Below are positions 5,324-33,605 of a stretch of DNA of 64,000 nucleotides, one piece after another. Numbering within the stretch: position 1 is the first letter of the stretch; every line of letters begins with the position of its first letter. Source of the stretch: Chaetoceros tenuissimus (lineage: Eukaryota > Bacillariophyta > Thalassiosirophyceae > Chaetocerotales > Chaetocerotaceae); contig BLLK01000029.1 in assembly GCA_021927905.1 (NCBI GenBank), positions 930,001-994,000 on the forward strand, read 5' to 3'. The translations under genes were made by a program, and so were the position numbers. A model generated the notes under the pieces. It saw only the letters and a program-made list of their open reading frames with translations. It ran no database searches and was not told where the DNA came from.

Positions 5324-5343
5324 AAATAGCTGTACGTACTACT

Positions 5344-5821: not shown

Positions 5822-5913
5822 TCCCCCTCATCATTCCCTACCTCACAATGCTTTCTGCTTCAATGTCGGTCTCAACAATAGGAATCCCTCGTCTGTGCTC
5901 AGATTGGGTCCTA

Positions 5914-7338: not shown

Positions 7339-10300
7339 GTCTCTTGGTGCTTTCGTCTCCTTTGAACACCTGTTGCACCTTCCTTCCCAATTCCAAAAGT
7401 GCTGGTGACCCTTTGAGTTGCCATGGTCTACTGTTGAGGAAAGGAAAAAATATTGCTATTAGTAAAGGTTCAAACATGTTCACACTCCAAGCTGCATGAC
7501 CGGGGGGAAGTTCCAAGATGATATCAGCCGCCTTGTGTAAATGCCTTTTCCATGCAGGGGTCATCAACCTAGGACAAATGAAAATGTGAGTTGACTCTTG
7601 TCTCTTGTGTCTGGCGCGCCGTATTTCTTCCAAGCAAGGTAAAGCCAAGCTAGGAGGAGGCGACCATACAAAATTACCAGATACATAATTTGGAACCCAT
7701 TGACCGTCTATGTTGACACTGCCTTCCAAAATGTCATGACCTCTCTCAAACCAGTCCTCCATGGAAAGAAACTCCAAATCTTGGCCTTGATTTCTTCCTG
7801 CACTTTCAAACCAGTCACGTAGCCACAGTCCCAGTGCTGGATCTCTATCCAAAGCTGACTGATGCAGCGGCACAAATGATTTCATTGCTTCTCCTTTCAT
7901 TACTCCTTCAGTTAGAGCTCCTCTGCTCAAACCATCCGCGCCTTGCGCTATCATTCTAGTGCCTGCTACATGTATGATATGTATCTTGCAGTTACGAGTC
8001 ATTTCTAGCACAGAAAGCCTCACTACCAAATCAAACAGCCATTCTGAGCTTGAAGATCCCTTGTAAAAAGCTGCTTCAGCTGTGGAGTTATCCGTAAACA
8101 GAAACATCTCCACTCCTTCTAGCTCTTTCTCTCCCATCTTCTCCAGCGTCTGAACTAGGTTTTTCAGCTCGTGGAGATTAGAACTAGAATCATCCATATC
8201 ACTTCCCCATCTTCCAAATCTGTAAGAGATGCTTGATCTGCCTGTAGTCTCGCCCTTGCAGTCTTTCTCCCATGACATGCCAAAGCCTGATCCACTCGCG
8301 TCTCCAAAGCCGTAGATTATCTCCCAGATTTTGCTACCTCTTATGAGTCTTTTACTTGGTGTTTCTGACTCTAGCAACTTACTAAGCACTCTCAGATCTT
8401 GCTTGAAGCGAGGTACCCCCTTCACAAACACAGGCGCATTGTCATCTTGATGTTCTTCCTTCAACGTGAACTTTACATCTGACCAATGCTCCGCCCTACT
8501 TCCAATGTTGGTCCATTCAACACCATTGGTAGTTCCATCTCCTGCTTCCAAATCTTCCCAATACTGCTTCCAGTCTTTATTGCTTCTCTTCCAACCGACT
8601 GAGTCCCTATCCCATCTCCAGCCATTAAGGGTGTTGTAGAAACCCTTCAAGTAAGGCTTGAAGTTTTCAAAGGTTAAGCATACATGAATCAAGAAACCAG
8701 TATCCTTCTCCAACTCCTTCCGGTTCACCTTCCAGTCCTCTTCCTCATCCTCTGGAGCACATCTTAGCCACTTTTCCACAATATCTCTAGCTTTGTTCCA
8801 CTTCTCTGGAAGTATAGAAGCGTAGACTCCTTCTCCGGCTACTGTTTCTACTGTAGCTCCAGCCCATGCTCCAGGTGCCTGACTCACTTCTCTCCTTTTA
8901 CACGGCGCATCTTGCTGACCTAGATAGTTAATCTTTGCAGCTATGGTACGAGTTGCTTCATTGCAGTGGTCTTCACCTTGAGCCCAAGTACGAATGTCAT
9001 CCACATATGAACAAAAGGAAGCAGCAATTCTCTTGTTAGTTTCATCCCACCTGTAGATCCAAGGCTTTGTAGGATCATAATCAGCTGAGCCAGGCAAGTT
9101 AGTGACTACTGTGTCCCACCGTAAGGGATTGTTGCTGTCTTTTCTGTCTCCATGAATGAAGTCTTCGCTCCACAAAAAGGTTCTGATGCAGTTATACGGA
9201 GAACTCTTTAGCCCCATGAGGTTCCTCTCCCATCGCATGATCAGTCTCTTCCCCTCTGGAACCTCCACCTCAAGCAGATCAGCAATGTTTGTCACATCCA
9301 CCCCAGCACTTGATCTAAGATCCTCATCCAAGAAATAGTTGAGAAACATCTCCCCCAAATCTATGTCACCAAAGAAAGTATCTGGAGTAGCGCTTCGTAC
9401 CACCGTTGCTACAGTAGGTAGAAAGAAGTTGGGTGACCAGATAACCTCGTTCAACCCACACTTGGTGGCATCATACATCATTCTTATGTCTTCTTCACCC
9501 TTTGGTACAGCAAAGAATGAGATCAAACTGTCCACCTCTCCATCTTTGATATAGCCTCTATCCGCTACCTTTTTGATCTTCTTCCGCATAGTTTCCAGCT
9601 GTTTATCATCCTCTGGCCATCTGGATTTCTTCCAGTAAACAGGTGGCTTGTCTAGCAAAGTCACAGCCAAGCCGTCCCTTACTTCCTGTTGATAGCACTC
9701 AGGCCACCGCCAAAAGAACAGTGTAGAACCACTAGTCCACTCCCAGTATGAAGCTTCCGAGGCTCTACGAATTGCATCTGTTCCTACAATGATATCCTTC
9801 TCCAACTCAGATAGCTTCTTTTTCTTGTTCTGCTTGAGTTGATGGTATCTTGAGACTGCCTTGGTACTATGCTTCTTGTGTAGGTATTTTCTAAAGCTTG
9901 TGTAGATCTTTCTCTGATAGAAACGTAGCATAACTCTTCGCAGCATATCACACATCTTAGCATGCTTATCCGCCTGATAGGTAACACTCAAACACTTTTG
10001 AAACATTCGTCTGTTCCAAATGTCCACTTGAACCTCGGCATCATCTGATTTGGTTGCCTTGGCACTTTTGACTGTTTGATCCTCCCTTACATCCTCGATC
10101 TGCGGATTTTCTTCTACCAGTATCTGCGTTACCCTTGCCTTCTTAGCCGAAGGTACATCACTGCCGGTGTCTTCTACTTCACGCTTCTTACTCAATACAC
10201 TTCTAGCTTTCAACACCGATTCCATCAAGCCATACGTGATTTTTCCAGGTGCTTGCTTCTTGAAATCTATAGATGTGAAATGCTGGTACTGCACTTCAAC

Positions 10301-10972
10301 ATCGTACAGATCTAAAGCTTCAGCAGAAGTTATCTTTCGCCTCACCTTCCCAGATCTTACTAACACCGAAGGACAGATCACGGGATCATTTATTCTAGCC
10401 AAGGGAATATATGCTGGAGTATTCATATCGCCAGAGTAGAAGCTTCCTTCCTCCGTACACTTTAGCATATCTCTCAGTTGTGCATGAACCTTAGCAGCTG
10501 GAATGTGCAGTTCTTGTGCTGATCCAATCCACCATACGTGATCCAATGCTCCACCCACATGTCTATGAGGAATCTTGGTGAACCGCTTCAAACCAAAGTC
10601 TCTCAGTCTTCTCCTGTTGCCATTAGTTATGAGAACCACCGCCTGCGAAGCCATCTCCTGAGGTAAAGCAGAGAGAATTTGTACAAGGTAATTGACTGAG
10701 CCTTGTAACATTACCCAGCCAGATCCCTTGAATGCATGCAATGCCCGTAGAGTTTCATTCCTTCTACAAACTGTGACCCCAATTTGTGATTTTTCTAACT
10801 CCAACTTGCCTTGCAATGTGATGTCATCTACTACCGTCGTTAGATTTTTACAACCTAGTGACACACTACTGAAGGCCAATGAGGGCCAATGTTGTGCAAA
10901 TATGAAAAGAGGAGTGTTGACAGGTGTAATTAACTTAATGCCACTACACTCTTCCTCTAGTCTTACTTTCAC
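7163..10972 (-). CDS. YR retroelement ORF2: reverse transcriptase and RNase H with long N-terminal extension
   Basis: The 1,269-residue frame is open throughout. About 440 N-terminal residues have no assignable domain; a CPSVLVRSGKVRRKIT strand is the most striking part and a Lys-rich stretch precedes the RT. The RT shows FFGDIDLGEMFLNY (about residue 533) and SYVDDIRTWA (about 654). RNase H follows, with YGFGDASGSGFG (about 886), FLFTDNSTAEAAF (about 956) and HVAGTRMIAQGADGLSRG (about 1000), the arrangement typical of DIRS-type elements. A C-terminal tail of about 250 residues is unassigned. It would make the cDNA of the element. It lies 18 nt after ORF1 and overlaps ORF3. Confidence 0.88.
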   Translation of the reverse strand: MKVRLEEECSGIKLITPVNTPLFIFAQHWPSLAFSSVSLGCKNLTTVVDDITLQGKLELEKSQIGVTVCRRNETLRALHAFKGSGWVMLQGSVNYLVQILSALPQEMASQAVVLITNGNRRRLRDFGLKRFTKIPHRHVGGALDHVWWIGSAQELHIPAAKVHAQLRDMLKCTEEGSFYSGDMNTPAYIPLARINDPVICPSVLVRSGKVRRKITSAEALDLYDVEVQYQHFTSIDFKKQAPGKITYGLMESVLKARSVLSKKREVEDTGSDVPSAKKARVTQILVEENPQIEDVREDQTVKSAKATKSDDAEVQVDIWNRRMFQKCLSVTYQADKHAKMCDMLRRVMLRFYQRKIYTSFRKYLHKKHSTKAVSRYHQLKQNKKKKLSELEKDIIVGTDAIRRASEASYWEWTSGSTLFFWRWPECYQQEVRDGLAVTLLDKPPVYWKKSRWPEDDKQLETMRKKIKKVADRGYIKDGEVDSLISFFAVPKGEEDIRMMYDATKCGLNEVIWSPNFFLPTVATVVRSATPDTFFGDIDLGEMFLNYFLDEDLRSSAGVDVTNIADLLEVEVPEGKRLIMRWERNLMGLKSSPYNCIRTFLWSEDFIHGDRKDSNNPLRWDTVVTNLPGSADYDPTKPWIYRWDETNKRIAASFCSYVDDIRTWAQGEDHCNEATRTIAAKINYLGQQDAPCKRREVSQAPGAWAGATVETVAGEGVYASILPEKWNKARDIVEKWLRCAPEDEEEDWKVNRKELEKDTGFLIHVCLTFENFKPYLKGFYNTLNGWRWDRDSVGWKRSNKDWKQYWEDLEAGDGTTNGVEWTNIGSRAEHWSDVKFTLKEEHQDDNAPVFVKGVPRFKQDLRVLSKLLESETPSKRLIRGSKIWEIIYGFGDASGSGFGMSWEKDCKGETTGRSSISYRFGRWGSDMDDSSSNLHELKNLVQTLEKMGEKELEGVEMFLFTDNSTAEAAFYKGSSSSEWLFDLVVRLSVLEMTRNCKIHIIHVAGTRMIAQGADGLSRGALTEGVMKGEAMKSFVPLHQSALDRDPALGLWLRDWFESAGRNQGQDLEFLSMEDWFERGHDILEGSVNIDGQWVPNYVSGNFVWSPPPSLALPCLEEIRRARHKRQESTHIFICPRLMTPAWKRHLHKAADIILELPPGHAAWSVNMFEPLLIAIFFPFLNSRPWQLKGSPALLELGRKVQQVFKGDESTKRHVLRELWNLPRRLQGMSDELVLRVLRISGESRISSKATGKRRRSKVEENKRLKPFQSC

Positions 10973-10990
10973 TTCATTGACCCCAACCTT

Positions 10991-12861
10991 TCAGATCTCC
11001 TTCTTCTTCTTTCCTCCGCCTGCTGCTGCAGCCTTGGAAATAGCCGAGTTTGCCAAACCCTCTACCTTTGTCAACTTCTCCTCGATTGCCTTTACCTTCT
11101 TCACCGTGCCCTCCATCTCAGTCTGTAGCTTAGTGACAGCCTTGTTTGGCATATGGGTGAGCATAAAACGGGAGTAGGCACTAGATAAACCAGAATGATT
11201 CTCAAAGCCCACGCGAAGAAAGTCTTCTTGGATAGAAATAGTACGCAGTGCTGTCCAAATCACATTCACATTAGTTCCGTCGCAGTTCATATGATCAGCA
11301 GAACTGGATACAGCTCTAGCAACATGGAATTCACTTGAGAACACTTGCTTGACACAATTACATAGGAAATTCCAGCACTTGTCTCCCTCACTGAAGTACA
11401 GCTTTAGTGTTTCATACTCGTTGGAGAGAAAGAGAAACACAGCCTTGACGAATTCGACAGAGCGTACCAGCATGGCATCCAATAGTACAGTGACCGAAGC
11501 ATCCAAACCTTCCCTGGGATTGTTCAAGTATTCCAGCTTGATGGAATCCAAAGCCCTTTCTGCAGCCACCCTGACACAATTGTTTGGAGTCCCCATAGGT
11601 CCCCAAATCTCATGGGACTTGATGTTAGAGAACACTCTCGCCTTTGATCCTTTAATACTGCCATCCATGAAGATCTTTGAGCTCTTTGATCCATCGAAGA
11701 AGTTAGGTAGCCCACTCAAGGTAGATGACTGGATATGCAACAAGTCCTTGACGCTCCTGTTAAGCCTGTGAGCTTTATCTGGAGAGAACTTCCTCTCGTC
11801 TGGATAGCCAAATACTCTGTCGGCTACAAGGTCGAAGAGGATGTAAGCATCGTAGACCATCGACGGACGTACCAGAGAAGTAGATGTAGGACTCATTCTG
11901 AAAGCTGAACGCACATCTCTAGGTGAAGTGAATACCTGATCCTTGAATACCACAGTGATCTCTCCTCTAGAAGAATTTCCATTCTTAGCTCGTTCAAGAT
12001 CTGCTACCTTCTGAGCTAACTTTGCCAGAGTATCTCCGTTCGGAGCTGCAGCTGGTGGTGGTGCCGCGACTCCAACATGAAAGCTGTCAAAAAGAGAAGT
12101 AGCAGTAGCAGGGGCAGTAGACCGGTTCGCATTAGCCAGCTCCAATTTACTGATTCTGTCGGTGATGCTCTGAACCGTATCCTTAGTAGATTTGAGATAC
12201 TTCTTGAAGTCTTGATTCTGAAATACAGCCTCTTGCAGATCCTTGAGCTTGACAGGATCTTGTACTACCTTCATGAGATCCGGAGCACCTGTATCTTCGA
12301 TTGCTTCCCAATAGATTGCCCTGCTCTTGCGAGGTGAACACTTGGATTTCCCACCTGGGTACAAAGCATCTGATACTTGGTAGTAAGATCTTCGACATCT
12401 TTCTCGAGCTTTTGATTAGCAGAACTCATCCACGCTTCAATCTGCTTGTCCACTAACGTCAACCATCCTTCTTCCTTGGGCTCGATAGCAGCTGGTTTCT
12501 GGTCACTCACTCTCTCAGGTGAATTAAGAGCAGCATTATTGAACATGTCAGTCAGTCCATGAGCAACGTCCTCCATATCCTCTTCATCGTCCATCTTGCT
12601 GAACACGGCAGGTTTCTTGACGGTAGATCTAGCAATAGCAAGAGAGACACCAGTCAATAGAGCTTCAGTTCTAGCCTCAACTTCATGCATCCAATCCCCT
12701 TGATCCTTGAAGTTGGCCTGAAGGAGTCCAGCAATCTCCATGGTATCCAAGTTAGCAGCATCCAGCATCGGATCAACAGAAAGCTTGACCTTAGTAGAAG
12801 ATCTAGACATGTAGTACAAGGCAGCAGCACCTGTAGCTTTGCGGGCCTCTTTGGGAAGCAA
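10991..12861 (-). CDS. YR retroelement ORF1: gag-like protein region
   Basis: This region upstream of ORF2 encodes a gag-like protein rich in Ala, Ser, Lys and Glu. It includes predicted coiled-coil stretches (for instance LAQKVADLERAKN), a central conserved part around YDAYILFDLVADRVFGY and a Lys-rich C-terminus (GGGKKKKEI). No zinc knuckle was seen. Position directly before the RT frame is the main reason for calling it gag-like; by family knowledge it would form the RNA particle. The 5' part (12312-12850) has no counterpart in copy 2. About one break is present in the region. The true N-terminus is uncertain because the element is cut at the inversion junction. Confidence 0.65.
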
Positions 12862-12887
12862 TCGAAGATACAGGTGCTCCGGATCTC

Positions 12888-14171
12888 ATGAAGGTAGTAC
12901 AAGATCCTGTCAAGCTCAAGGATCTGCAAGAGGCTGTATTTCAGAATCAAGACTTCAAGAAGTATCTCAAATCTACTAAGGATACGGTTCAGAGCATCAC
13001 CGACAGAATCAGTAAATTGGAGCTGGCTAATGCGAACCGGTCTACTGCCCCTGCTACTGCTACTTCTCTTTTTGACAGCTTTCATGTTGGAGTCGCGGCA
13101 CCACCACCAGCTGCAGCTCCGAATGGAGATACTCTGGCAAAGTTAGCTCAGAAGGTAGCAGATCTTGAACGAGCTAAGAATGGAAATTCTTCTAGAGGAG
13201 AGATCACTGTGGTATTCAAGGATCAGGTATTCACGTCACCTAGAGATGTGCGTTCAGCTTTCAGAATGAGTCCTACATCTACTTCTCTGGTACGTCCGTC
13301 GATGGTCTACGATGCTTACATCCTCTTCGACCTTGTAGCCGACAGAGTATTTGGCTATCCAGACGAGAGGAAGTTCTCTCCAGATAAAGCTCACAGGCTT
13401 AACAGGAGCGTCAAGGACTTGTTGCATATCCAGTCATCTACCTTGAGTGGGCTACCTAACTTCTTCGATGGATCAAAGAGCTCAAAGATTTTCATGGATG
13501 GCAGTATTAAAGGATCAAAGGCGAGCGTGTTCTCTAACATCAAGTCCCATGATATTTGGGGACCTATGGGGACTCCAAACAATTGTGTCAGGGTGGCTGC
13601 AGAAAGGGCGTTGGATTCCATCAAGCTGGAATACTTGAACAATCCCAGGGAAGGTTTGGATGCTTCGGTCACTGTACTATTGGATGCCATGCTGGTACGC
13701 TCTGTTGAATTCGTCAAGGCTGTGTTTCTCTTTCTCTCCAACGAGTATGAAACACTAAAGCTGTACTTCAGTGAGGGAGACAAGTGCTGAAATTTCCTAT
13801 GTAATTGTGTAAAGCAAGTGTTCTCAAGTGAATTCCATGTTGCTAGAGCTGTATCCAGTTCCGCGGATCATATGAACTGCGACGGAACTAATGTGAATGT
13901 GATTTGGACAGCACTGCGTACTATTTCTATCCAAGAAGACTTTCTTCGCGTGGGCTTTGAGAATCATTCTGGTTTGTCTAGCGCATACTCCCGCTTTATG
14001 CTCACTCACATGCCAAATATAGCAGTGACCAAGTTGCAAACTGAGATGGAGTCTACAGTGAAGAAGGTAAAGGCAGCAGAGGAAAAGCTGACTAAGGTGG
14101 AGGGATTAGCGAACTCCGCTATTTCCAAGGCAGCGGCTGCTGGCGGAGGAAAGAAGAAGAAGGAGATCTGA
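12888..14171 (+). CDS. YR retroelement ORF1 (gag-like), copy 2, 5'-truncated
   Basis: This is the plus-strand counterpart of the copy 1 gag-like region, nearly the same from KVVQDPVKLKDLQ to the Lys-rich GGGKKKKEI end. It lacks the first roughly 190 codons because the inverted arm begins at 12851. The coiled-coil stretch and the YDAYILFDL core are present. ORF2 starts 18 nt downstream. This copy of ORF1 is broken (about one interruption) and is treated as a fossil part. Confidence 0.65.
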
Positions 14172-14189
14172 AAGGTCGGGGCTGATGTA

Positions 14190-17100
14190 GTGCAAGTAAG
14201 AAAGGAGGAAGAGTGTAGTGGAACTAAAGTAATCACACCTGTCAACACTCCTCTTTTCATATTTGCACAACATTGGCCCTCATTGGCCTTCAGTAGTGTG
14301 TCACTAGGTTGTAAAAATCTAACGACGGTAGTAGATGACATCACATTGCAAGGCAAGTTGGAGTTAGAAAAGTCACAAATTGGGGTCACAGTTTGTAGAA
14401 GGAATGAAACTCTACGGGCATTGCATGCATTCAAGGGATCTTGCTGGGTAATGTTACAAGGCTCAGTCAATTACCTTGTACAAATTCTCTCTGCTTTACC
14501 TCAGGAGATGGCTTCGCAGGCGGTGGTTCTCATAACTAATGGCAACAGGAGAAGACTGAGAGACTTTGGTTTGAAGCGGTTCACCAAGATTCCTCATAGA
14601 CATGTGGGTGGAGCATTGGATCACGTATGGTGGATTGGATCAGCACAAGAACTGCACATTCCAGCTGCTAAGGTGCATGCACAACTGAGAGATATGCTAA
14701 AGTGTACGGAGGAAGGAAGCTTCTACTCTGGCGATATGAATACTCCAGCATATATTCCCTTGGCTAGAATAAATGATCCCGTGATCTGTCCTTCGGTGTT
14801 AGTAAGATCTGGGAAGGTGAGGCGAAAGATAACTTCTGCTGAAGCTTTAGATCTGTACGATGTTGAAGTGCAGTACCAGCATTTCACATCTATAGATTTC
14901 AAGAAGCAAGCACCTGGAAAAATCACGTATGGCTTGATGGAATCGGTGTTGAAAGCTAGAAGTGTATTGAGTAAGAAGCGTGAAGTAGAAGACACCGGCA
15001 GTGATGTACCTTCGGCTAAGAAGGCAAGGGTAACGCAGAGACTGGTAGAAGAAGATCCGCAGATCGAGGATGTAAGGGAGGATCAAACAGTCAAAAGTGC
15101 CAAGGCAACCAAATCAGATGATGCCGAGGTTCAAGTGGACATTTGGAACAGACGAATGTTTCAAAAGTGTTTGAGTGTTACTTATCAGGCGGATAAGCAT
15201 GCTAAGATGTGTGATATGCTACGAAGAGTTATGCTACGTTTCTATCAGAGAAAGATCTACACAAGCTTTAGAAAATACCTACACAAGAAGCATGGTACTA
15301 AGGCAGCCTCAAGATACCATCAACTCAAGCAGAACAAGAAAAAGAAGCTATCTGAGTTGGAGAAGGATATCATCGTAGGAACAGATGCAATTCGTAGAGC
15401 CTCGGAAGCTTCATACTGGGAGTGGACTAGTGGTTCTACACTGTTCTTTTGGCGGTGGCCTGAGTGCTATCAACAGGAAGTAAGGGACAGCTTGGCTGTG
15501 ACTCTGCTAGACAAGCCACCTGTTTACTGGAAGAAATCCAGATGGCCAGAGGATGATAAACAGCTGGAAACTATGCGGAAGAAGATCAAAAAGGTAGCGG
15601 ATAGAGGCTATATCCAAGATGGAGAGGTGGACAGTTTGATTTCATTCTTTGCTGTACCAAAGGGTGAAGAAGACATAAGAATGGTGTATGATGCCACCAA
15701 GTGTGGGTTGAACGAGGTTATCTGGTCACCCAACTTCTTTCTACCTACTGTAGCAACGGTGGTACGAAGCGCTACTCCAGATACTTTCTTTGGTGACATA
15801 GATTTGGGGGAGATGTTTCTCAACTATTTCTTGGATGAGGATCTTAGATCAAGTGCTGGGGTGGATGTGACAAACATTGCTGATCTGCTTGAGGTGGAGG
15901 TTCCAGAGGGGAAGAGACTGATCATGCGATGGGAGAGGAACCTCATGGGGCTAAAGAGTTCTCCGTATAACTGCATCAGAACCTTTTTGTGGAGCGAAGA
16001 CTTCATTCGTGGAGACAGAAAAGACAGCAACAATCCCTTACGGTGGGACACAGTAGTCACTAACTTGCCTGGCTCAGCTGATTATGATCCTACAAAGCCT
16101 TGGATCTACAGGTGGGATGAAACTAACAAGAGAATTGCTGCTTCCTTTTGTTCATATGTGGATGACATTCGTACTTGGGCTCAAGGTGAAGACCACTGCA
16201 ATGAAGCAACTCGTACCATAGCTGCAAAGATTAACTATCTAGGTCAGCAAGATGCGCCGCGTAAAAGGAGAGAAGTGAGTCAGGCACCTGGAGCATGGGC
16301 TGGAGCTACAGTAGAAACAGTAGCTGGAGAAGGAGTCTACGCTTCTATACTTCCGGAGAAGTGGAACAAAGCTAGAGATATTGTGGAAAAGTGGCTAAGA
16401 TGTGCTCCAGAGGATGAGGAAGAGGACTGGAAGGTGAACCGGAAGGAGTTGGAGAAGGATACTGGTTTCTTGATTCATGTATGCTTAACCTTTGAAAATT
16501 TCAAGCCTTACTTGAAGGGTTTCTACAACACCCTTAATGGCTGGAGATGGGATAGGGACTCAGACGGTTGGAAGAGAAGCAATAAAGACTGGAAGCAGTA
16601 TTGGGAAGATTTGGAAGCAGGAGATGGAACTACCAATGGTGTTGAATGGACCAACATTGGAAGTAGGGCGGAGCATTGGTCAGATGTAAAGTTCACGTTG
16701 AAGGAAGAACATCAAGATGACAATGCGCCTGTGTTTGTGAAGGGGGTACCTCGCTTCAAGCAAGATCTTAGAGTGCTTAGTAAGTTGCTAGAGTCAGAAA
16801 CACCAAGTAAAAGACTCATAAGAGGTAGCAAAATCTGGGAGATAATCTACGGCTTTGGAGACGCGAGTGGATCAGGCTTTGGCATGTCATGGGAGAAAGA
16901 CTGCAAGGGCGAGACTACAGGCGGATCAAGCATCTCTTACAGATTTGGAAGATGGGGAAGTGATATGGATGATTCTAGTTCTAATCTCCGCGAGCTGGAA
17001 AACCTAGTTCAGACGCTGGAGAAGATGGGAGAGAAAGAGCTAGAAGGAGTGGAGATGTTTCTGTTTACGGATAACTCCACAGCTGAAGCAGCTTTTTACA

Positions 17101-17999
17101 AGGGATCTTCAAGCTCAGAATGGCTGTTTGATTTGGTAGTGAGGCTTTCTGTGCTAGAAATGACTCGTAACTGCAAGATACATATCATACATGTAGCAGG
17201 CACTAGAATGATAGCGCAAGGCGCGGATGGTTTGAGCAGAGGAGCTCTAACTGAAGGAGTAATGAAAGGAGAAGAAATGAAATCATTTGTTCCGCTGCAT
17301 CAGTCAGCTTTGGATAGAGATCCAGCACTGGGACCGTGGCTACGTGACTGGTTTGAAAGTGCAGGAAGAAATCAAGGCCAAGATTTGGAGTTTCTTTCCA
17401 TGGAGGACTGGTTTGAGAGAGGTCATGACATTTTGGAAGGCAGTGTCAACGTAGACGGTCAATGGGTTCCAAATTATGTATCTGGTAATTTTGTATGGTC
17501 GCCTCCTCCTAGCTTGGCTTTACCTTGCTTGGAAGAAATACGGCGCGCCAGACACAAGAGACAAGAGTCAACTCACATTTTCATTTGTCCCAGGTTGATG
17601 ACCCCTGCATGGAAAAGACATTTACACAAGGCGGCTGATATCATCTTGGAACTTCCCCCTGGTCATGCAGCTTGGAGTGTGAACATGTTTGAACCTTTAC
17701 TAATAGCAATATTTTTTCCTTTCCTCAACAGTAGACCATGGCAACTCAAAGGGTCACCAGCACTTTTGGAATTGGGAAGGAAGGTGCAACAGGTGTTCAA
17801 AGGAGACGAAAGCACCAAGAGACATGTTTTGCGGGAACTTTGGAATCTCCCGAGAAGGCTGCAAGGAATGTCAGATGAGTTGGTGCTGCGAGTGCTACGT
17901 ATATCAGGGGAGCCTAGAATTTCATCGAAAGCTACCGGAAAACGACGAAGGAGCAAAGTGGAAGAAAACAAGCGACTCAAACTGTTTCAATCATGCTAG
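14190..17999 (+). CDS. YR retroelement ORF2 (RT and RNase H), copy 2
   Basis: A 1,269-residue open frame, the same length as in copy 1 and about 98% identical by eye. All landmarks are kept: FFGDIDLGEMF, YVDD, GFGDASGSGFG, LFTDNSTAEAAF and the GADGLSRG end of RNase H. That two copies both keep this frame suggests recent activity or recent duplication. The N-terminal unassigned region contains the Glu/Asp- and Lys-rich low-complexity linker (about residues 265-320). The frame ends inside ORF3. Confidence 0.88.
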   Translation: MQVRKEEECSGTKVITPVNTPLFIFAQHWPSLAFSSVSLGCKNLTTVVDDITLQGKLELEKSQIGVTVCRRNETLRALHAFKGSCWVMLQGSVNYLVQILSALPQEMASQAVVLITNGNRRRLRDFGLKRFTKIPHRHVGGALDHVWWIGSAQELHIPAAKVHAQLRDMLKCTEEGSFYSGDMNTPAYIPLARINDPVICPSVLVRSGKVRRKITSAEALDLYDVEVQYQHFTSIDFKKQAPGKITYGLMESVLKARSVLSKKREVEDTGSDVPSAKKARVTQRLVEEDPQIEDVREDQTVKSAKATKSDDAEVQVDIWNRRMFQKCLSVTYQADKHAKMCDMLRRVMLRFYQRKIYTSFRKYLHKKHGTKAASRYHQLKQNKKKKLSELEKDIIVGTDAIRRASEASYWEWTSGSTLFFWRWPECYQQEVRDSLAVTLLDKPPVYWKKSRWPEDDKQLETMRKKIKKVADRGYIQDGEVDSLISFFAVPKGEEDIRMVYDATKCGLNEVIWSPNFFLPTVATVVRSATPDTFFGDIDLGEMFLNYFLDEDLRSSAGVDVTNIADLLEVEVPEGKRLIMRWERNLMGLKSSPYNCIRTFLWSEDFIRGDRKDSNNPLRWDTVVTNLPGSADYDPTKPWIYRWDETNKRIAASFCSYVDDIRTWAQGEDHCNEATRTIAAKINYLGQQDAPRKRREVSQAPGAWAGATVETVAGEGVYASILPEKWNKARDIVEKWLRCAPEDEEEDWKVNRKELEKDTGFLIHVCLTFENFKPYLKGFYNTLNGWRWDRDSDGWKRSNKDWKQYWEDLEAGDGTTNGVEWTNIGSRAEHWSDVKFTLKEEHQDDNAPVFVKGVPRFKQDLRVLSKLLESETPSKRLIRGSKIWEIIYGFGDASGSGFGMSWEKDCKGETTGGSSISYRFGRWGSDMDDSSSNLRELENLVQTLEKMGEKELEGVEMFLFTDNSTAEAAFYKGSSSSEWLFDLVVRLSVLEMTRNCKIHIIHVAGTRMIAQGADGLSRGALTEGVMKGEEMKSFVPLHQSALDRDPALGPWLRDWFESAGRNQGQDLEFLSMEDWFERGHDILEGSVNVDGQWVPNYVSGNFVWSPPPSLALPCLEEIRRARHKRQESTHIFICPRLMTPAWKRHLHKAADIILELPPGHAAWSVNMFEPLLIAIFFPFLNSRPWQLKGSPALLELGRKVQQVFKGDESTKRHVLRELWNLPRRLQGMSDELVLRVLRISGEPRISSKATGKRRRSKVEENKRLKLFQSC

Positions 18000-19536
18000 A
18001 CCAGGAGATTCTTTTCTGGCTCCATTTCAATGTGACAATTGTTGCTTCATGAACCTGTATCTGAGAAATCCTAACCCGCACTCTCCCAGCGATGAAATAG
18101 CATTGAATTTGATTCGTCGTGCAAATCTTGATATGTTATGGGGTAGAGACTCTTCTACCGTGTCTAGTGCTTATGGTCAAATGCTACAGCTGAAGAAAAT
18201 GTCTTCTAACTTAGGGTTGTTAGTTTCAAGGGACAAGATGGGACCTTGGCCAATTGAAGACTGCTCTGGAGTAGAAACGGCCATGTTGATGTTGTGGAAA
18301 TCATTAGACAAGGGTCAAAAGGGAAGAAACTACTGTCAGTTTGACACTATTCGAAAAATACGTTCATTGAGAGAGAACATACATTCAGGCAGTATAAATG
18401 GACTGCTCAGCAATGTGGCTTTCACGGATCAGAGAGGAAGAGTCTTTCATATGGACAAATCTCCTATGCATACCAAATGGTTTCAACTATTCAGCAAGGG
18501 TTGTGAATCCCGGATGGAAAATTCTACATCACAAGACGCAGCTCTTTCAGTGGAAGCAATGCTAGCAATGTTGGAATTACTGTGGAAATCATTAGACAAG
18601 GGTCAAAAGGGAAGAAACTACTGTCAGTTTGACACTATTCGAAAAATACGTTCATTGAGAGAGAACATACATTCAGGCAGTATAAATGGACTGCTCAGCA
18701 ATGTAGCTTTCACGGATCAGAGAGGAAGAGTTTTTCATATGGACAAATCTCCTATGCATACCAAATGGTTTCAACTATTCAGCAAGGGTTGCAAATCCCG
18801 GATGGAAAATTCTACATCACAAGACGCAGCTCTTTCAGTGGAAGCAATGCTAGCAATGTTGGAATTACTGGAGTTGAGAGTGCAACGTACTAGTACGTCT
18901 AAGGAAGAGAGAAGAATGGCGGTCATGATTGCCGCAGTACTTGTGGTAGGATTTTGTGCAGCTCTTAGAGGAGGTGAAATAATGCTGGTAGAAGCAACAG
19001 AGTTCTGCAGGAGAATAGATGCTGGAAGAGTTGAGTCTACACAGCACGTACTGGTACCTCTTATGGGATGATTCAAAAATGAAATAGGAGAAAGAAACGT
19101 TCTACTAGCGTTGGTAGCTGTCACTAAGAGTGGAATTCAGATCAGAAAATGGTTGGATCGACTTGCAATGATCCTTAGACTAGAAGGAAGGGACGTCGGT
19201 GATCCTAGTCCAGCCATATGCGATGAGAACGGTTATGTGCTCAGCACAAGAGTATTAGAGAAGGAGTTGCATGGATTGTTGAAGATTCTTCAAGAGAAAG
19301 GAGTAGTCCCAGAAGGCCTCAGTGTGGAGAGTGAATTTCATGTGTATAGATCCTTGAGACGAGGTGCCACAGCAAGAGCTACAAACATGCAACTCAGTCA
19401 GGTCGTGATTGATACCAACAACAGATGGAGATTGATGCAAACATCCAGAGGAAAGAAGAATCTGCCTATGAGTCAACTTTACCTGGATATTCGCGTCGCA
19501 TTACCTGCCCATCTAGCCTTTTCTGCTGCAATGTAG
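17824..19536 (+). CDS. YR retroelement ORF3 (tyrosine recombinase), copy 2
   Basis: This copy of the Cys-rich tyrosine recombinase ORF overlaps ORF2 by 176 nt as in copy 1. The zinc-finger-like N-terminus (CKECQ, CDNCCF), ALRGGEI and YRSLRRGATARA motifs are all recognisable. It contains the in-frame 288-bp tandem duplication at 18293-18868 and is broken (about one interruption), so it is regarded as a fossil. Confidence 0.75.
18293..18868 (+). repeat. 288-bp tandem duplication within ORF3 of copy 2
   Basis: Two adjacent 288-bp units (18293-18580 and 18581-18868), each starting TGTGGAAATCATTAG, are almost identical. Copy 1 has a single unit. The length is a multiple of three, so the duplication adds 96 codons in frame. 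Confidence 0.9.
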
Positions 19537-19628
19537 TAGGACCCAATCTGAGCACAGACAAGGGATTCCTATTGTTGAGACCGACATTGAAGCAGAAAGC
19601 ATTGTGAGGTAGGGAATGATGAGGGGGA

Positions 19629-20106
19629 GAGATCAAGGTCTTCCGGAAGACATTGATTTTATTATTGTCTTTCAAGTAGTAAATTCTTGATTTGAAGTTC
19701 GAAAGTGCTGGATTGCACGTTAGAGGATGTTGAGCTTGTGGAGAAGTGACATAGCGCCATCTCCTTTTGCAGCAAGCTCACATCGTGGCGTTGAGGTTCT
19801 AGGTTTACTGTGAAACTTCAAACATATATGAGATTCATTTCGATTGTATGCTCGGAGTGGAGAAACCATAGAATGTTCTCTTCCCTCACTCTTATAAGAG
19901 TTCAAAGAAAGTATCTACGAAATGTGAAGAATTCAAATTTGATTTTACTCCCGTTTATCTGGAACTTGAGGTGAGGTGGGACTGCGTCCCCCCTACCCCC
20001 CTTTGTCAAGTATAACTTGAGAGGTCTCACTTTGTAAATGGCTAACTATTCTAACTGACTCGTTGATTGCTCTTACCACCTACTTACTAACTTAGACGCC
20101 TTCCCA
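19629..20106 (+). repeat. YR element terminal repeat B1
   Basis: This 478-bp block from GAGATCAAGGTC to GACGCCTTCCCA is repeated directly at 20553-21030. I saw no differences between the two. It follows the end of ORF3 by about 90 bp. Confidence 0.9.
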
Positions 20107-20552
20107 TTTTGCACATACAGTTCAATAGGGAAAAGAAAGAGAAGCGAAGGAGGTGAAAGTGCAGACTACGATGCAGAAAGAATATCTTTTGAAACGCTCC
20201 GCTAACGTCAAGTTGTCAGCTTTTGAAAGTTCAAAAAATGACGCTCACATCATACTCTGATACATCTACTACCTACAGAGAAGATCCAAAAGATATGATT
20301 GGAAGTCCTGGACTTGAAGCAAGTGACGTATATCAAAAAGGAACAACTGACAGACGAGAGAAAGAATTGAAACGAATGACGTGCTGCAAGCAGAGCCATT
20401 GAAATTGTAAGGTGTCAGAAAGAGGTGTCAGTTAGAAGGTCTTTACTTTATTTCAGCAGTGTGCTCATAGAAAGTCGAAATTCAGTTGTGTGGAAGAATA
20501 GCTATCTTGTACTGGAACTGGAAAGAAAATTTTTTACCCACCCACCCATCCC
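20107..20552 (+). repeat. YR element terminal repeat A2
   Basis: This 446-bp block lies between B1 and B2. Its start (TTTTGCACATACAGTTCAAT) and end (AGTGTGCTCATAGAAAG and on to a C-rich ACCCACCCACCC tail) have clear homologues, in reverse orientation, at 31670-32100 upstream of the second YR family. It is therefore interpreted as the A repeat that should also stand at the 5' end of an intact element. Confidence 0.8.
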
Positions 20553-21030
20553 GAGATCAAGGTCTTCCGGAAGACATTGATTTTATTATTGTCTTTCAAG
20601 TAGTAAATTCTTGATTTGAAGTTCGAAAGTGCTGGATTGCACGTTAGAGGATGTTGAGCTTGTGGAGAAGTGACATAGCGCCATCTCCTTTTGCAGCAAG
20701 CTCACATCGTGGCGTTGAGGTTCTAGGTTTACTGTGAAACTTCAAACATATATGAGATTCATTTCGATTGTATGCTCGGAGTGGAGAAACCATAGAATGT
20801 TCTCTTCCCTCACTCTTATAAGAGTTCAAAGAAAGTATCTACGAAATGTGAAGAATTCAAATTTGATTTTACTCCCGTTTATCTGGAACTTGAGGTGAGG
20901 TGGGACTGCGTCCCCCCTACCCCCCTTTGTCAAGTATAACTTGAGAGGTCTCACTTTGTAAATGGCTAACTATTCTAACTGACTCGTTGATTGCTCTTAC
21001 CACCTACTTACTAACTTAGACGCCTTCCCA
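20553..21030 (+). repeat. YR element terminal repeat B2
   Basis: Second direct copy of the 478-bp B block. Its end at TTCCCA (21030) is followed by CCAGCAAATG, a flank also found at 24554 and 27789. Confidence 0.9.
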
Positions 21031-21873
21031 CCAGCAAATGATATTTGAAATTTTGAAATAATTCTTTTTTTTTGACACTCTTTGAAAATATTACCCTCCA
21101 AAACTTATTTCCACTCTACGAGGTGCGATGCGCTCAAAATGTGACAACCGACTCACTCGAAAAACCGCGAAGAATTGGGATTTACATACAAAACTCATAC
21201 AAAACACTATTGAATTAAATTGAAAAGAATAGGCTCTATCTCATGAAAAAATAAACCAATAACTATAATAAGTACATGTATCTATATCTACATTCTCTGA
21301 TCTTTCAAAAACATCCAAGCTGCATATTCCAAAGTCATCCCAATCAAAAGTTATTAACACCTGACAAAAAGCAAAATTTCCACTAACAACCACCGTGTAA
21401 AATGAAAATTCATCATGTACCCTCCAAATGATTACACCAAGCATTTTCCACGCTTTTCATTCAACTATTCTTGCAACATAGATGGTTCTTGACCACTAGA
21501 AGCTTCAAATTCTGTCAACATGGACTATTTCCACTCCGTCATGCACATCTCCCATACATGCACCATACAAAACTGGTTCTTGTAAAAATCCTCTTCTGCA
21601 CTAACAACCGGCTACCATGTACTCCTAGATGTTTATAGAGTTCGTCTCTGCACAAATTTGGAAGCAAAACTCCTTCAGGAAGCCGTTGAGCCATATACTG
21701 CCAGAGGTATTTTTCACTAGCTTTCACCGCGTAAACCTAGTTTCCATGCCCAACACTATTTCATCACCAAATCTCATCCAATCCAATCCCTAACTTCCCC
21801 CAATCTATTCCTTATGTCAAAATTAGTCAATGCATGCAGTTCCAAGTTGTATGAATTATTTGAATATATGATT
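21031..21873. other. Flank without recognisable gene, partly duplicated elsewhere
   Basis: No gene was recognised. The first 256 bp (to 21286) recur at 27789-28044, and the first about 102 bp recur at 24554-24656, both in the same orientation. The remainder has only short frames. It bridges the end of YR copy 2 and the satellite array. Confidence 0.7.
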
Positions 21874-24217
21874 ACATAGGTAAAACCTACAAAAGCTGGT
21901 CAGAGACCCAAACTCCACAACTCAATGGTTCGAAAGAAACGATCATCTAAAGATGAACACTACTAACATATCAGAACAAACCCCAAAGCTGAGATATACA
22001 ATCAAAATGTAGCTCAAAGATTTTATTCAAAATATGCAAACCAAAAAGCGGTGGGTGGGTGAAATAACATTACCACTTCCAAAGTTTGAAACTCTTGAAG
22101 TCGAGATCACAAACAGATTGAAAGAATAAGATCTTGAGAAATGAAGAAAGAAGGTGACTACACAACTTGTGACTCAAATTCAAGATTTTCAATATCAGAA
22201 TGATAACTGACTCTAGCCACATACATTCTGAGTTCAAAAATCGATATTAGATCATTGTAAGCGTAATGATACATAGGTAAAACCTACAAAAGCTGGTCAG
22301 AGACCCAAACTCCACAACTCAATGGTTCGAAAGAAACGATCATCTAAAGATGAACACTACTAACATATCAGAACAAACCCCAAAGCTGAGATATACAATC
22401 AAAATGTAGCTCAAAGATTTTATTCAAAATATGCAAACCAAAAAGCGGTGGGTGGGTGAAATAACATTACCACTTCCAAAGTTTGAAACTCTTGAAGTCA
22501 AGATCACAAACAGATTGAAAGAATAAGATCTTGAGAAATGAAGAAGAAGGTGACTACACAACTTGTGACTCAAATTCAAGATTTTCAATATCAGAATGAT
22601 AACTGACTCTAGCCACATACATTCTGAGTTCAAAAATCGATATTAGATCATTGTAAGCGTAATGATACATAGGTAAAACCTACAAAAGCTGGTCAGAGAC
22701 CCAAACTCCACAACTCAATGGTTCGAAAGAAACGATCATCTAAAGATGAACACTACTAACATATCAGAACAAACCCCAAAGCTGAGATATACAATCAAAA
22801 TGTAGCTCAAAGATTTTATTCAAAATATGCAAACCAAAAAGCGGTGGGTGGGTGAAATAACATTACCACTTCCAAAGTTTGAAACTCTTGAAGTCGAGAT
22901 CACAAACAGATTGAAAGAATAAGATCTTGAGAAATGAAGAAGAAGGTGACTACACAACTTGTGACTCAAATTCAAGATTTTCAATATCAGAATGTTAACT
23001 GACTCTAGCCACATACATTCTGAGTTCAAAAATCGATATTAGATCATTGTAAGCGTAATGATACATAGGTAAAACCTACAAAAGCTGGTCAGAGACCCAA
23101 ACTCCACAACTCAATGGTTCGAAAGAAACGATCATCTAAAGATGAACACTACTAACATATCAGAACAAACCCCAAAGCTGAGATATACAATCAAAATGTA
23201 GCTCAAAGATTTTATTCAAAATATGCAAACCAAAAAGCGGTGGGTGGGTGAAATAACATTACCACTTCCAAAGTTTGAAACTCTTGAAGTCGAGATCACA
23301 AACAGATTGAAAGAATAAGATCTTGAGAAATGAAGAAGAAGGTGACTACACAACTTGTGACTCAAATTCAAGATTTTCAATATCAGAATGATAACTGACT
23401 CTAGCCACATACAAGAAACGATCATCTAAAGATGAACACTACTAACATATCAGAACAAACCCCAAAGCTGAGATATACAATCAAAATGTAGCTCAAAGAT
23501 TTTATTCAAAATATGCAAACCAAAAAGCGGTGGGTGGGTGAAATAACATTACCACTTCCAAAGTTTGAAACTCTTGAAGTCGAGATCACAAACAGATTGA
23601 AAGAATAAGATCTTGAGAAATGAAGAAGAAGGTGACTACACAACTTGTGACTCAAATTCAAGATTTTCAATATCAGAATGTTAACTGACTCTAGCCACAT
23701 ACATTCTGAGTTCAAAAATCGATATTAGATCATTGTAAGCGTAATGATACATAGGTAAAACCTACAAAAGCTGGTCAGAGACCCAAACTCCACAACTCAA
23801 TGGTTCGAAAGAAATGATCATCTAAAGATGAACACTACTAACATATCAGAACAAACCCCAAAGCTGAGATATACAATCAAAATGTAGCTCAAAGATTTTA
23901 TTCAAAATATGCAAACCAAAAAGCGGTGGGTGGGTGAAATAACATTACCACTTCCAAAGTTTGAAACTCTTGAAGTCGAGATCACAAACAGATTGAAAGA
24001 ATAAGATCTTGAGAAATGAAGAAGAAGGTGACTACACAACTTGTGACTCAAATTCAAGATTTTCAATATCAGAATGATAACTGACTCTAGCCACATACAT
24101 TCTGAGTTCAAAAATCGATATTAGATCATTGTAAGCGTAATGATACATAGGTAAAACCTACAAAAGCTGGTCAGAGACCCAAACTCCACAACTCAATTGT
24201 TCGAAAGAAACGATCAT
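21874..24217. repeat. 396-bp satellite array, block 1
   Basis: About six head-to-tail units with a 396-bp period start at about 21874, 22270, 22666 and 23062. A shortened pair follows (106 bp missing at the join near 23412), then a unit at about 23748, ending in a partial unit at 24217. Units differ by only a few bases. Each contains GCGGTGGGTGGGTG and GAAAGAAACGATCATC. A 69-codon minus-strand frame recurs in every unit, but this follows simply from the units being alike. No tRNA or known family was recognised. Confidence 0.93.
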
Positions 24218-24503
24218 TTTAAAATTAAAAGCGATGCATTAATGATTGATATCTCTCAGCCGAGTGAAACTTTGACATTGCATGTTTTCTTTATATTTTA
24301 TTTCTCTTCTAGGTTTGCAATGGACAATAATATATTTACAAATGATATTATGAATATCATATTTAGAATTTGAATTTGTATCTAATTTCCTTCTCCTTTT
24401 TTCGTTTTCCTTTTCCTCTCCTTTTTCTCTCCCTCCCTTCTCATTTTTCTCGCTCAACTAAAACTGGCTTTTGCTCCACCACCACCACCATGAGCTGATT
24501 GCC
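24214..24503. mobile_element. Terminal fragment of the 1,478-bp TIR element (diverged)
   Basis: This 290-bp piece matches the right end of the elements at 32.1-38.0 kb: ATTTTAAAATTAAAA, GATGCATTAATGATTGATAT, the C/T-rich TCTCTCCCTCCCTTCTC and the terminal GAGCTGATTGCC. It is visibly more diverged from them than they are from each other, so it is an older copy. It starts exactly where satellite block 1 stops. Confidence 0.8.
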
Positions 24504-24656: not shown

Positions 24657-25437
24657 ATGCAGTGATGATCAAATGATAACGGTAGTTACGGGTTTATGTT
24701 TAACTCACTAAATCTAAATACTCTAGGTCCGAATGAGATAGTCCAAAGTGCAATAAGAGATGCACCAAAGCAGGGGGGAGAGCAAGGCTCACCCTCTTAC
24801 TTTTAAGATAGTCCAAAGGGTAAATTGTAACCAAGGATATCTCATGGTAAGAAACTCGGGGGAGTAACTAAGGTTCAAAATTCCTTGCATCTGCGTACTT
24901 GAAAGGAGAAGATGCGACTTTAACCCAATAATAAATTATTGAGTTCAAGAACAGAGTTCTTGTAAACATCGACCAGAGAAAGAGACTGTCAGTTCATGAC
25001 TGAGAGTCAAACATGGATTGCACTATCCACTTCCCCTTCTCTATTCTTTTACCTTCTTTGCATCTATCAAGAATAAACTTGAGAGTGCTCAATTCAAGAG
25101 TAGCGGATGAAAGTCCTTTCTTATCTAGCTACGACCTACCCCCCAGTTAATCATCTAATTCAGACTACACAACACTGGCGGACTGACTCAAACATCTTAT
25201 CATGTCATTGATGTTGAAAACCAGTAATTGTCCAGAGCACAGATATAACGACTGCACTTGCAAGCAGGACCGAAGCATTCAATTGAGTGAGCTAACAAAC
25301 CCGTTGAAAAACCTAACATGGTTAGGAAAAGCACTACCTATAATGATTTAGAAAACCAAAGACGTGAGTCGAGAGTTTGCGATATTTCAGTGTAAAGATC
25401 AAACATTTTAAAATTGGGCATACTTCCACCGCTTCTT
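24657..25437. other. No gene; contains a dispersed repeat also found at 43.83 kb
   Basis: No protein family was recognised. On the minus strand about 100 bp (24665-24760) match 43830-43930 (GCACTTTGGACTATCTC, ATTTAGTGAGTTA, AACCCGTAACT and on to ATCATCAC). It might be an LTR end or another dispersed repeat, and could also include the 3' non-coding part of the adjacent minus-strand YR fragment. Confidence 0.5.
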
Positions 25438-26362
25438 TCAACTTGTCTGATTATTGATGGAAATGGTATCTTCTCTCACTCCATTTTCTCTTGCTCTTGT
25501 TGTAGCTCCTCTTCGAAACGATCTGTTGATACTATACTTGAATTTGACGTCAATGGTGCTAGCAATAAGTTCCGGACTGTTTGCTTGTATTTCCAATAAC
25601 ATATCATGAAGCTCTGCATTCAGTTCTTGAGCCGTAATAAGCAAGCCATCCGCATCACAAATTGCTGGTCCAACACTCTTGCTGAGACCTTCCATTTTCA
25701 GTAGTGCAGATAGTAGGTGAACCCATCTTCCAATTTCAAGACCACTTGCAGATTCATATGCTAGAGCCATCATGAAGTTTCTAGTGCCAGTTTCAGCCTT
25801 AAACCTTCCCATCAATGGTACAACTACGTGCGCTGTATCTGCATTATCAGTCCTGCCCTTCTGACGCCATTTAACTAGCTCAGATCGTTCTACGTAAAGT
25901 ACCTCATTTCCTCTAAGAGCTCCAGCAAACAAGATTACAAAAGCTGCTCCACAAACTATTATAGTTCTAACTCTGTCTGGATCTAAGTCTGGATCTTCTA
26001 ACTCAAGATCATAATGCCTCAAAATAGCCAACAACAAATCCATCGACATACCCATATCTTGATTTACCATTCGACCCATTTGCTTTTTCATGCCAAGCAT
26101 AAACCAAGAAAAGAATTGAGATTCTGTCTTGCCATAGAGATAATCGAATCTGGCACCTTTGCTAGATTTAATTTTGTAGGTATCATCCTTTCCAGAGAAG
26201 CCCGTGTTGAAGACTGGAGTCGCAGCAAAGAAGTTAGAATAACCTGATCTAAGTTTTCTAACTGAATCATACTGAGTATAACTTTTGGAGTTCTTTCCAG
26301 GGCGTTGAGACTGAACCAACAAATCTACAGCAATAGCCATACCATACGGATCGCCTATGGGA
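25438..26362 (-). mobile_element. Second YR retroelement family, recombinase (ORF3) fragment
   Basis: The minus-strand frame resembles the ORF3 recombinase of the 5-20 kb elements but is a different family: FAGALRGNEVLYVER corresponds to box A, VVVPLMGRFKAETGTRN to the conserved strand and INRSFRRGATTRA to box B. The N-terminal Cys-rich part is absent; the fragment begins at the junction with satellite block 2. Identity to the first family is moderate, so the two families split long ago. It is a fossil piece and lies on the same strand as, and 3' of, the RT piece at 29-31.5 kb. Confidence 0.8.
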
Positions 26363-31535: not shown

Positions 31536-31669
31536 GTCAGGGAAAAACATGTTTGTCCTTTGTTCCCCCATTTACTTTAGCAAACAACGCTAGATAGCAG
31601 CAGCAAGATTAGGAGACAAAGTCATAGACTAACCAAGAAGAGGTAAAGTAAAATGTTTTGTAATGACTG

Positions 31670-33599: not shown

Positions 33600-33605
33600 A
33601 ATTTT

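Follow-up and report, generated by a model that had tools for sequence, protein, structure and literature searches.

Two truncated retroelement copies in Chaetoceros tenuissimus

The window, i.e. the whole 64,000-nucleotide stretch of DNA that was analysed, originates from Chaetoceros tenuissimus, and the diatom host put forward in the initial annotation was thus correct. It contains two copies of a repeat family, here termed alpha1, which encodes a predicted reverse transcriptase (RT) and a predicted tyrosine recombinase (YR). The copies lie head to head and are 98.2% identical over 5,732 bp. The right-hand copy is 98.4–99.1% identical to a full copy (L032) from element position 1304 onward; it is 5′-truncated, starting inside ORF1 and lacking A1 and the initial ~1.3 kb of element sequence. 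The left-hand copy is 5′-truncated by ~770 bp and ends in a single B, without A2-B2. Position 12851, initially taken as the start of the element, is instead the junction of these two 5′-truncated copies, the second of which occupies the minus strand (5344-12850), and it is because of this truncation and head-to-head fusion that the window copy lacks A1. The following features were assigned:

12851-21030, plus strand: right-hand alpha1 copy
12888-14171, plus strand: ORF1 (gag-like) remnant, with an internal stop at 13788-13790 and the final UGA at 14169-14171
14172-17999, plus strand: ORF2 (predicted RT and RNase H), an open frame of 1275 residues
17824-19536, plus strand: ORF3 (predicted YR), damaged
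19606-19628, plus strand: G-rich, mostly purine tract resembling a polypurine tract, directly 5′ of B1
19629-20106, plus strand: B1
20107-20534, plus strand: A2, 428 bp in common with A1 of full copies (431 bp in some variants)
20535-20552, plus strand: unique C-rich spacer between A2 and B2, TACCCACCCACCCATCCC
20553-21030, plus strand: B2
5344-12850, minus strand: left-hand alpha1 copy
7163-10990, minus strand: ORF2 open frame of the left-hand copy
5914-7338, minus strand: ORF3 (predicted YR) of the left-hand copy, an open 474-aa frame, used for folding
25341-31537, minus strand: remains of a third family, alpha3 (ORF2 at 29171-31537, YR at 25341-26361)
31534-32102, minus strand: A1 and leader of alpha3

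By tblastn, the ORF1 remnant of the right-hand copy is 98.4% identical to residues 279-718 of L032 ORF1. ORF2 continues in frame with ORF1 across the UGA; none of its first 93 codons is ATG, and no ATG precedes the conserved sequence. The right-hand ORF3 is damaged by a tandem duplication of 288 bp (18293-18868) and by a break in its frame. The window copy is adjoined by 396-bp satellite arrays, and the end of B2 is duplicated, together with its flank, at 27690-28044.

Terminal repeats and adjoining tracts

B1 and B2 are indeed, as first claimed, 100% identical at 478 bp each, and their spacing is 924 bp. The 446-bp block between them, originally read as A2 throughout, was right in size, but comparison with A1 of other copies restricted A to 428–431 bp, the final 15–18 bp being the unique C-rich spacer. 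Since the last base of B2 (478) varies among copies, the element, judged from its sequence, probably ends at 21029. Eight B-B pairs were present in the copies examined, ~99–100% identical within each pair and spaced by 924 bp in seven cases and 925 bp in the eighth (L036), a recurrence from which chance spacing can be discounted.

In alpha elements, the A2/B2 spacer is 15–19 bp long and C-rich, and is absent after A1 and before B1. A C-rich stretch occupies the A2/B2 position in four other families as well, among them beta and gamma, split-repeat elements of the same genome that are in other respects unlike alpha; the gamma sequence (L053) is partial, without A1, and its C-rich stretch is given without spacer limits. 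In this comparison, alpha1 and the non-autonomous family described below are related rather than independent, and the C-richness ranks are descriptive, having been calculated for a feature already noticed. The position before B1, where the purine tract may have a priming role, is likewise rich in G in alpha2 and in the non-autonomous family, and is not so in beta or gamma.

Full-length copies, ends and targets

A1 was found 41-43 bp before the ORF1 ATG in five other copies, all with the order A1-ORF1-ORF2-ORF3-B1-A2-B2, giving a full element of ~9.2 kb. This confirms the Ngaro/PAT-type plan (A1-ORFs-B1-A2-B2) that had been proposed from the window. Of the two outcomes named beforehand as contradicting it, neither was encountered: A is present at 5′ ends, and inverted ends with an internal complementary region were not seen in the alpha family, the inverted repeat of the window being a copy-copy fusion. 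On at least 8 contigs these ends recur with different sequence around them, the genome-search counts being lower bounds that include related families. No target-site duplication was seen in the inspected flanks of alpha1 and non-autonomous copies; searches for empty sites with the joined flanks of two copies (L044 and L048) gave no match spanning the join, and both L044 flanks lie in repeats. The target flank of another copy (L038) is a repeat of 80 bp, for which 14 more matches were found. Read as sequence alone, this flank resembles a tRNA; ARAGORN, run on seven loci for a tRNA gene at this target, returned none. The alpha coding sequence shows few non-synonymous changes, several of the dN/dS values resting on few changes.

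Predicted enzymes and library searches

The AF2 model of ORF2 matches the RT-RNase H of MMLV, CaMV, HIV and Ty3, with the catalytic columns conserved, and ORF2 is therefore predicted to be an RT-RNase H retaining its catalytic residues. ORF3 is modelled as a Cre-like YR that retains its catalytic residues apart from a His-to-Arg change. Arg occupies the catalytic His position (His-X-X-Arg) in 62/62 aligned alpha relatives, a naturally occurring departure from a catalytic motif that is otherwise conserved; the catalytic Tyr is present. This Tyr lies 18 residues after Trp in the alpha1 YR, and 8 residues after it in two other YR types of the genome.

Neither Pfam, for which ORF2 proteins were scanned individually, nor NCBIfam gave an alpha1 family match above cut-off, RT and YR included, and PHROGs and PDB sequence profiles gave no match of note for either enzyme; the standard protein libraries miss these enzymes because they are so diverged. 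Two alpha members showed sub-threshold similarity to RVT_1 (E 0.004 and E 6.8e-4). Sub-threshold similarity to DUF1168 was observed in the YR (E 0.0045; 7/62 members), and library matches to ORF1 were weak and scattered. No methyltransferase match was obtained in Pfam, NCBIfam or PHROGs, i.e. in family libraries only, the structure-match lists of ORF2 being filled by the RT domain. Public sequence data contain 568 relatives of the alpha RT at E ≤ 0.001; no Pfam domain occurs in any of the 120 listed among them, and such elements are therefore probably under-counted where annotation relies on domains. In viral contigs, 32 pattern matches were obtained and 0 were confirmed as relatives. The earlier suggestion of a possibly undescribed family holds as far as Pfam, NCBIfam, PHROGs, PDB sequences and literature searches go: searches among open-licence PMC papers for Ngaro/DIRS elements of diatoms or plankton, or for a split-repeat priming site, listed no evident description of alpha1, and the available portions of the C. 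tenuissimus genome paper mention only ‘Gypsy/DIRS1’.

Related families in the same genome

The split-repeat plan is common to alpha1, a family whose RT is 51% identical to that of alpha1, and a non-coding family of 3.57 kb. The latter is probably mobilised in trans, and suggests that little more than A, B and the spacer is needed in cis. The diverged A homologue reported in the initial annotation was recovered on the minus strand at 31676-31818 of the window, ~79% identical to the 3′ part of A; it falls within the A1 and leader of alpha3, which are 94% identical to the 5′ end (A1 and leader) of the non-autonomous family. The alpha3 remains, located by tblastn with alpha1 and alpha2 proteins, are interrupted by a satellite array, and no ORF1 match was found in them by tblastn. 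A PF00589 search of the genome gave nine matches, none of which exceeded the cut-off or concerned alpha; it was through this search that beta and gamma were identified. These resemble alpha in their B1-A2-B2 arrays, in the C-rich stretch before B2 and, for beta, in having RT/RNase H upstream of YR, but differ in a recombinase with HSLR or HSIR and a Tyr 8 residues after Trp. The beta and alpha RTs are only remotely similar (hhalign probability 67%, E 5e-5, 8% identity).

Interpretation and alternatives

Alpha is very probably a recently active, multi-copy split-direct-repeat YR retrotransposon with the plan A1-ORF1-ORF2-ORF3-B1-A2-spacer-B2, belonging to a diverged clade, on account of the repeat plan shared by full copies and the family 51% identical in RT, the predicted folds, the few non-synonymous changes and the recurrent, precise ends. 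Transcription would run from within A1 to within B2, RT would make cDNA from this RNA, and the complete internal B1-A2 unit would supply what the RNA ends lack. The product may then circularise with a B|A junction, which the YR would recombine with short genomic targets whose last base is C (many end in CC or CCC), with no target duplication. End rebuilding in split-direct-repeat retrotransposons is presented, in the consulted part of the source, as a proposed model resting on annealing between repeats (PMC6681497). The genome of the cultured strain NIES-3715 combines full copies that are almost identical, mixed copies, a small derivative without coding sequence and three or more types of split-repeat element, and since these copy types coexist in one cultured alga the model is directly testable.

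One alternative is that alpha represents a regular Ngaro (or PAT) element that has drifted in sequence and forms no separate clade, an appreciable possibility though somewhat short of an even chance. The plan A1-ORFs-B1A2B2 and the gene order are as reported for Ngaro (PMC8547959, PMC4157794), Ngaro and PAT members have been reported in Ectocarpus, a brown alga (PMC12477816), Symbiodinium DIRS RTs likewise fit Pfam poorly (PMC5890265), and the sub-threshold RVT_1 similarity of two alpha members fits the same reading. However, the alpha1 RT and YR have no Pfam match, whereas the Ngaro elements of Cafeteria burkhardae are said to match PF00078 and PF00589 (PMC8547959); the Arg at the YR His position in 62/62 aligned relatives and the remoteness of the alpha RT from that of beta also speak against this alternative. 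A bolder, joint reading, which we regard as unlikely in its entirety, is that alpha is a further superfamily-level clade of YR retrotransposons, widespread in public sequence data (probably plankton), with an Arg-for-His YR and with Gag and Pol in one frame, separated by a UGA. First-strand synthesis would be primed at the C-rich A2/B2 stretch, which otherwise dissimilar elements of this genome retain, and in alpha the purine tract before B1 would prime the second strand. B1-A2 would then correspond to an LTR lying between PPT and PBS, and the split-repeat element to a two-repeat, LTR-like circle that the recombinase opens at B|A, within the repeat instead of at its edges.

The adjoining satellite arrays, the head-to-head fusion and the copied B2 end with its flank could also point to segmental or satellite-type duplication, with blocks repeated by chance and without functional termini. 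This is highly improbable given identical ends in different flanks on at least 8 contigs and an arrangement common to otherwise dissimilar sequence families; the local rearrangement of the window is an event separate from element dispersal. Still less credible is an element of the DIRS1 type, with inverted termini and an internal complementary region. The 5.7-kb inverted repeat of the window might evoke it, but consists of two head-to-head copies. A further point in its favour comes from a different element type, the gamma stretch C21:1006400-1013982, in which a 76% inverted pair (~470-490 bp) surrounds the ORFs. Self-comparisons of two copies (L051, L052), the beta copy and the non-autonomous copies gave A and B as direct repeats without an inverted pair at the ends; such inverted matches as occurred lay in flank (L051) or within a rearranged copy (L049).

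Comparison with known systems

Alpha was set beside Ngaro, PAT, Symbiodinium DIRS and VIPER elements by their published descriptions. Both the RT with RNase H and the tyrosine recombinase by which the order DIRS is recognised are predicted in alpha, and the full copies compared carry direct A and B repeats, not the inverted ends of DIRS1-like elements. Ngaro shares with alpha the plan A1-[gag, RT-RNase H, YR]-B1-A2-B2, in which the internal repeats follow the YR (PMC8547959). The Cafeteria Ngaro YR is described with His-X-X-Arg and a catalytic Tyr, and the element is ~6 kb long (PMC8547959). In alpha, the His position is Arg, ORF1 and ORF2 share a frame with a UGA between them, and the length is ~9.2 kb; alpha1 has its Tyr 18 residues beyond Trp and no PF00078 or PF00589 match above cut-off. 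The PAT-like elements Pat1, Toc and Kangaroo also have split direct repeats but are defined, in the text available, with a methyltransferase domain, which the family libraries did not recognise in alpha (PMC4157794). Symbiodinium DIRS elements are similar to alpha in their A-coding-B-A-B repeats and in an RT that fits Pfam models poorly, and differ in that some carry a DNMT3 domain in Pol (PMC5890265). VIPER-like elements, which belong to a kinetoplastid lineage, have split direct repeats in some copies, as alpha does (PMC6681497).

Alpha1 copies in the window and across the genome

Alpha1, the window's family of tyrosine recombinase (YR) retrotransposons, is organised as A1-ORF1-ORF2-ORF3-B1-A2-spacer-B2, where A and B are split direct repeats and the ORFs are gag-like, RT-RNase H and YR, respectively. 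The identical B repeats described in the initial annotation were recovered by self-comparison, 19629-20106 equalling 20553-21030 over 478 bp (100%) with 446 bp between them. The alpha1 features of the window are:

5330-18582: head-to-head pair of alpha1 copies, fused at 12847-12850 (overlap ~3 bp), both 5'-truncated at different points
From 12847-12851, + strand: right copy, starting inside ORF1 (self-comparison)
12849 down to 5330, - strand: left copy (self-comparison)
18293-18868: right copy, YR gene, tandem duplication of a 288-bp (96-codon) unit

Set against the full copy L032, the right copy begins at element position 1304 and the left at 769, so that A1 is missing from both. Over 5,732 bp the arms share 98.2% identity. 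They differ by the 288-bp duplication, which is absent from the left copy and from loci L031-L034; the pair thus did not arise by simple fold-back of a single copy. The fusion may be either a real rearrangement or a haplotype-merge artefact, heterozygosity in C. tenuissimus being put at 1.56% (PMC8613185).

Searches of the 41.03-Mb assembly, in which the window is C21:930001-994000, returned at least 41 matches to the A2 block and at least 40 to B, counts that take in related families; the genome paper gives 41 Mb and puts 'Gypsy/DIRS1' at 1.11% (PMC8613185). A1 together with B1-A2-B2 is present in L031-L034 and in L035/L036, which also carries an insertion. The ORF1 frame of L031-L033 is open, that of L034 broken. 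The initial annotation had proposed looking for A1 immediately upstream of ORF1, and full copies have it there: A1 ends in ...AAAATTTTT(T), followed 41-43 bp further on by the ORF1 ATG. Of the eight B-B pairs, seven are spaced 924 bp apart; the pair in L036 is spaced 925 bp. A1 with a single B occurs in L038/L039 (also with an insertion) and L040, the left window copy likewise ending in a single B; such copies probably arose by B1 x B2 recombination. B1-A2-B2 with an incomplete 5' side was found in the window, L037 and L041 (contig start), while L042 and L043 carry A1, the remainder being cut by the contig end.

A1 and A2 are of the same variant within each of L032, L034 and L035/L036, as predicted by regeneration of A1 from A2. 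L031 and L033 (the latter beginning at a contig end) combine A1 and A2 of different variants, which would need template exchange or later recombination; they give the impression that another element's RNA served to complete the 5' end.

Element ends and targets

The base before A1 (ATTTTGCAC...) is C in all eight readable copies (L033 excluded, its flank being too short), and the position before that is C in five of the eight. B2 is invariant up to CTTCCC, after which the next base differs between copies. A non-autonomous family (L044 and related copies) ends in CAACTCGC (CACCTCGC in L050) and GCGCAACCC, again with one C on each side. One alpha1 copy has as its target an 80-bp tRNA-like, possibly SINE-like repeat (L038:211-290) with 14 further genomic matches, 13 of which stop at the C preceding the element, as expected if the next A is the first element base. 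No target duplication was visible in the flanks read of alpha1 and non-autonomous copies, and genome searches with the joined flanks of L044 and L048 found no true empty site.

The ORF1/ORF2 junction

TGA ends ORF1 and ORF2 continues at once in the same frame in eleven alpha1 copies (both window copies, L031-L035, L038, L040, L042 and L043) and in L051 and L052 of the related family alpha2. The first 93 ORF2 codons contain no ATG in eight alpha1 copies (both window copies, L031-L034, L038 and L040), and the conserved WPS segment falls within them. For these codons nine of ten pairs have a dN/dS of 0.09-0.39, and the tenth, with two synonymous and no non-synonymous changes, has 0; the remainder of ORF2 gives 0.07-0.35, some pairs showing few changes. 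P0002, a close relative, has Met at the codon following alpha1's stop. UGA read-through, re-initiation or a non-AUG start could each explain this arrangement; read-through is the favoured, if unproven, option.

Related families

The top database match of ORF2 is C. tenuissimus CTEN210_10360. At E <= 0.001, at least 568 proteins match the RT-RNase H region and at least 239 match YR; no Pfam domain was present in the 120 listed of each, and informative names are nearly absent among the matches listed, the Chaetoceros entry apart. That many come from plankton is a guess. Nine longest-contig sizes (e.g. 87,599 and 15,939) are common to both lists against about two expected by rough estimate, consistent with linkage of ORF2 and YR in relatives.

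In the genome ORF2 finds at least 28 matches with E <= 1e-5, four of them long and 51-52% identical. Two of these four, L051 (with a stop codon inside ORF2) and L052, hold A1, ORF1, ORF2, ORF3, B1 (377 bp), A2 and B2, the beginning of A1 falling just outside the stretch taken. The non-autonomous L044 measures 3,567 bp: an A1 of 425-428 bp is followed by non-coding sequence rich in repeats (1.73 kb) and then by B1-A2-B2. Of seven copies compared in all, five are 99.3-99.7% and L050 95-96% identical to it over the aligned length, L046 is without B2 and L049 is rearranged on the A1 side. In L044 and L050 no ATG-started ORF is as long as 90 aa on the element strand, and none on the opposite strand is as long as 150 aa. 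Over its first 569 bp the family shares 94% identity with window 32102-31534 (-), a stretch ahead of another alpha family:

25341-31537: alpha3, ORF2 and YR matches, behind the 32102-31534 (-) sequence

Alpha3 is thus the probable source, or driver, of the non-autonomous family.

The window also holds arrays of a ~396-bp satellite (21868-24228 and 26360-27688; most copies 97-100% alike), the second inside the alpha3 element and directly followed, at 27690-28044, by a duplicate of 20932-21286, which takes in the final 99 bp of B2 and 256 bp of flank. Tandem repeats of 1.48 kb (99%) occupy 32116-36555, with a partial inverted copy at 36556-38005; segments of 32116-38005 are also ~85% similar to 24214-24503. 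A further tandem repeat (47509-51038) has a period of ~1.51 kb and 99.8% identity.

Two other YR types occur in the genome. Beta (L055-L062; contigs C21, C17, C44, C54 and C57) is a second split-repeat retroelement type with recombinase motif HSLR, and a protein database search at E <= 0.001 gave 1,049 relatives of its RT; its C54 copy has A1 of 187 bp, B of 143 bp and a 19-bp spacer. Gamma (L053, L054 and L063; C21:1006400-1020750) has HSIR; B is 240 bp in L053, the L054 copy is without B repeats, and in the L063+L054 stretch the ORFs lie between the two members of an inverted pair (76%).

The spacer between A2 and B2

Agreement between A1 and A2 ends 15-19 bp before B2; from there on the sequence is unique and rich in C.

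Table. Sequences directly before B2.
Alpha1: TACCCACCCACCCATCCC (15 bp in variant copies)
Alpha2: CCCACCCTCGCCACCC
Non-autonomous family: CCCACCCACCATCCC
Beta: CCCTCCCACTTCCACCCTG
Gamma L053: ACCACCCGCCCACCCA (without A1, so limits not fixed by A1/A2 comparison)

The 18 bases ahead of B2 contain 11-12 C. Windows equally or more C-rich, counting those that overlap the site itself, number 17/8,163 in alpha1, 3/9,048 in alpha2, 23/3,549 in the non-autonomous family, 6/6,479 in beta and 7/2,643 in gamma. A G-rich position before B1 occurs only in alpha1, alpha2 and the non-autonomous family. As hhalign finds no more than a remote relationship between the RT profiles of alpha and beta (probability 67%, E 5e-5, 8% identity), the shared stretch suggests a mechanistic role. 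It might be where one of the cDNA strands is primed; a signal for structure or packaging is just as possible.

Placement among YR retroelements

The literature describes the A1-ORFs-B1-A2-B2 plan for Ngaro, PAT and VIPER (PMC4157794, PMC8547959, PMC6681497), a methyltransferase (MT) domain missing from Ngaro and Viper (PMC3266345), Ngaro and PAT-like families in Ectocarpus (PMC12477816), and DIRS elements of A-coding-B-A-B structure with a divergent RT in Symbiodinium (PMC5890265). Searches of Pfam, NCBIfam and PHROGs gave no methyltransferase match in the family. As its YR departs from the His-X-X-Arg motif and the comparison with Ngaro, PAT and VIPER was by description, the family is assigned to none of the three. 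Alpha1 is a YR retrotransposon family with split direct repeats, and its plan is the same as that of Ngaro, PAT and VIPER in their published descriptions.
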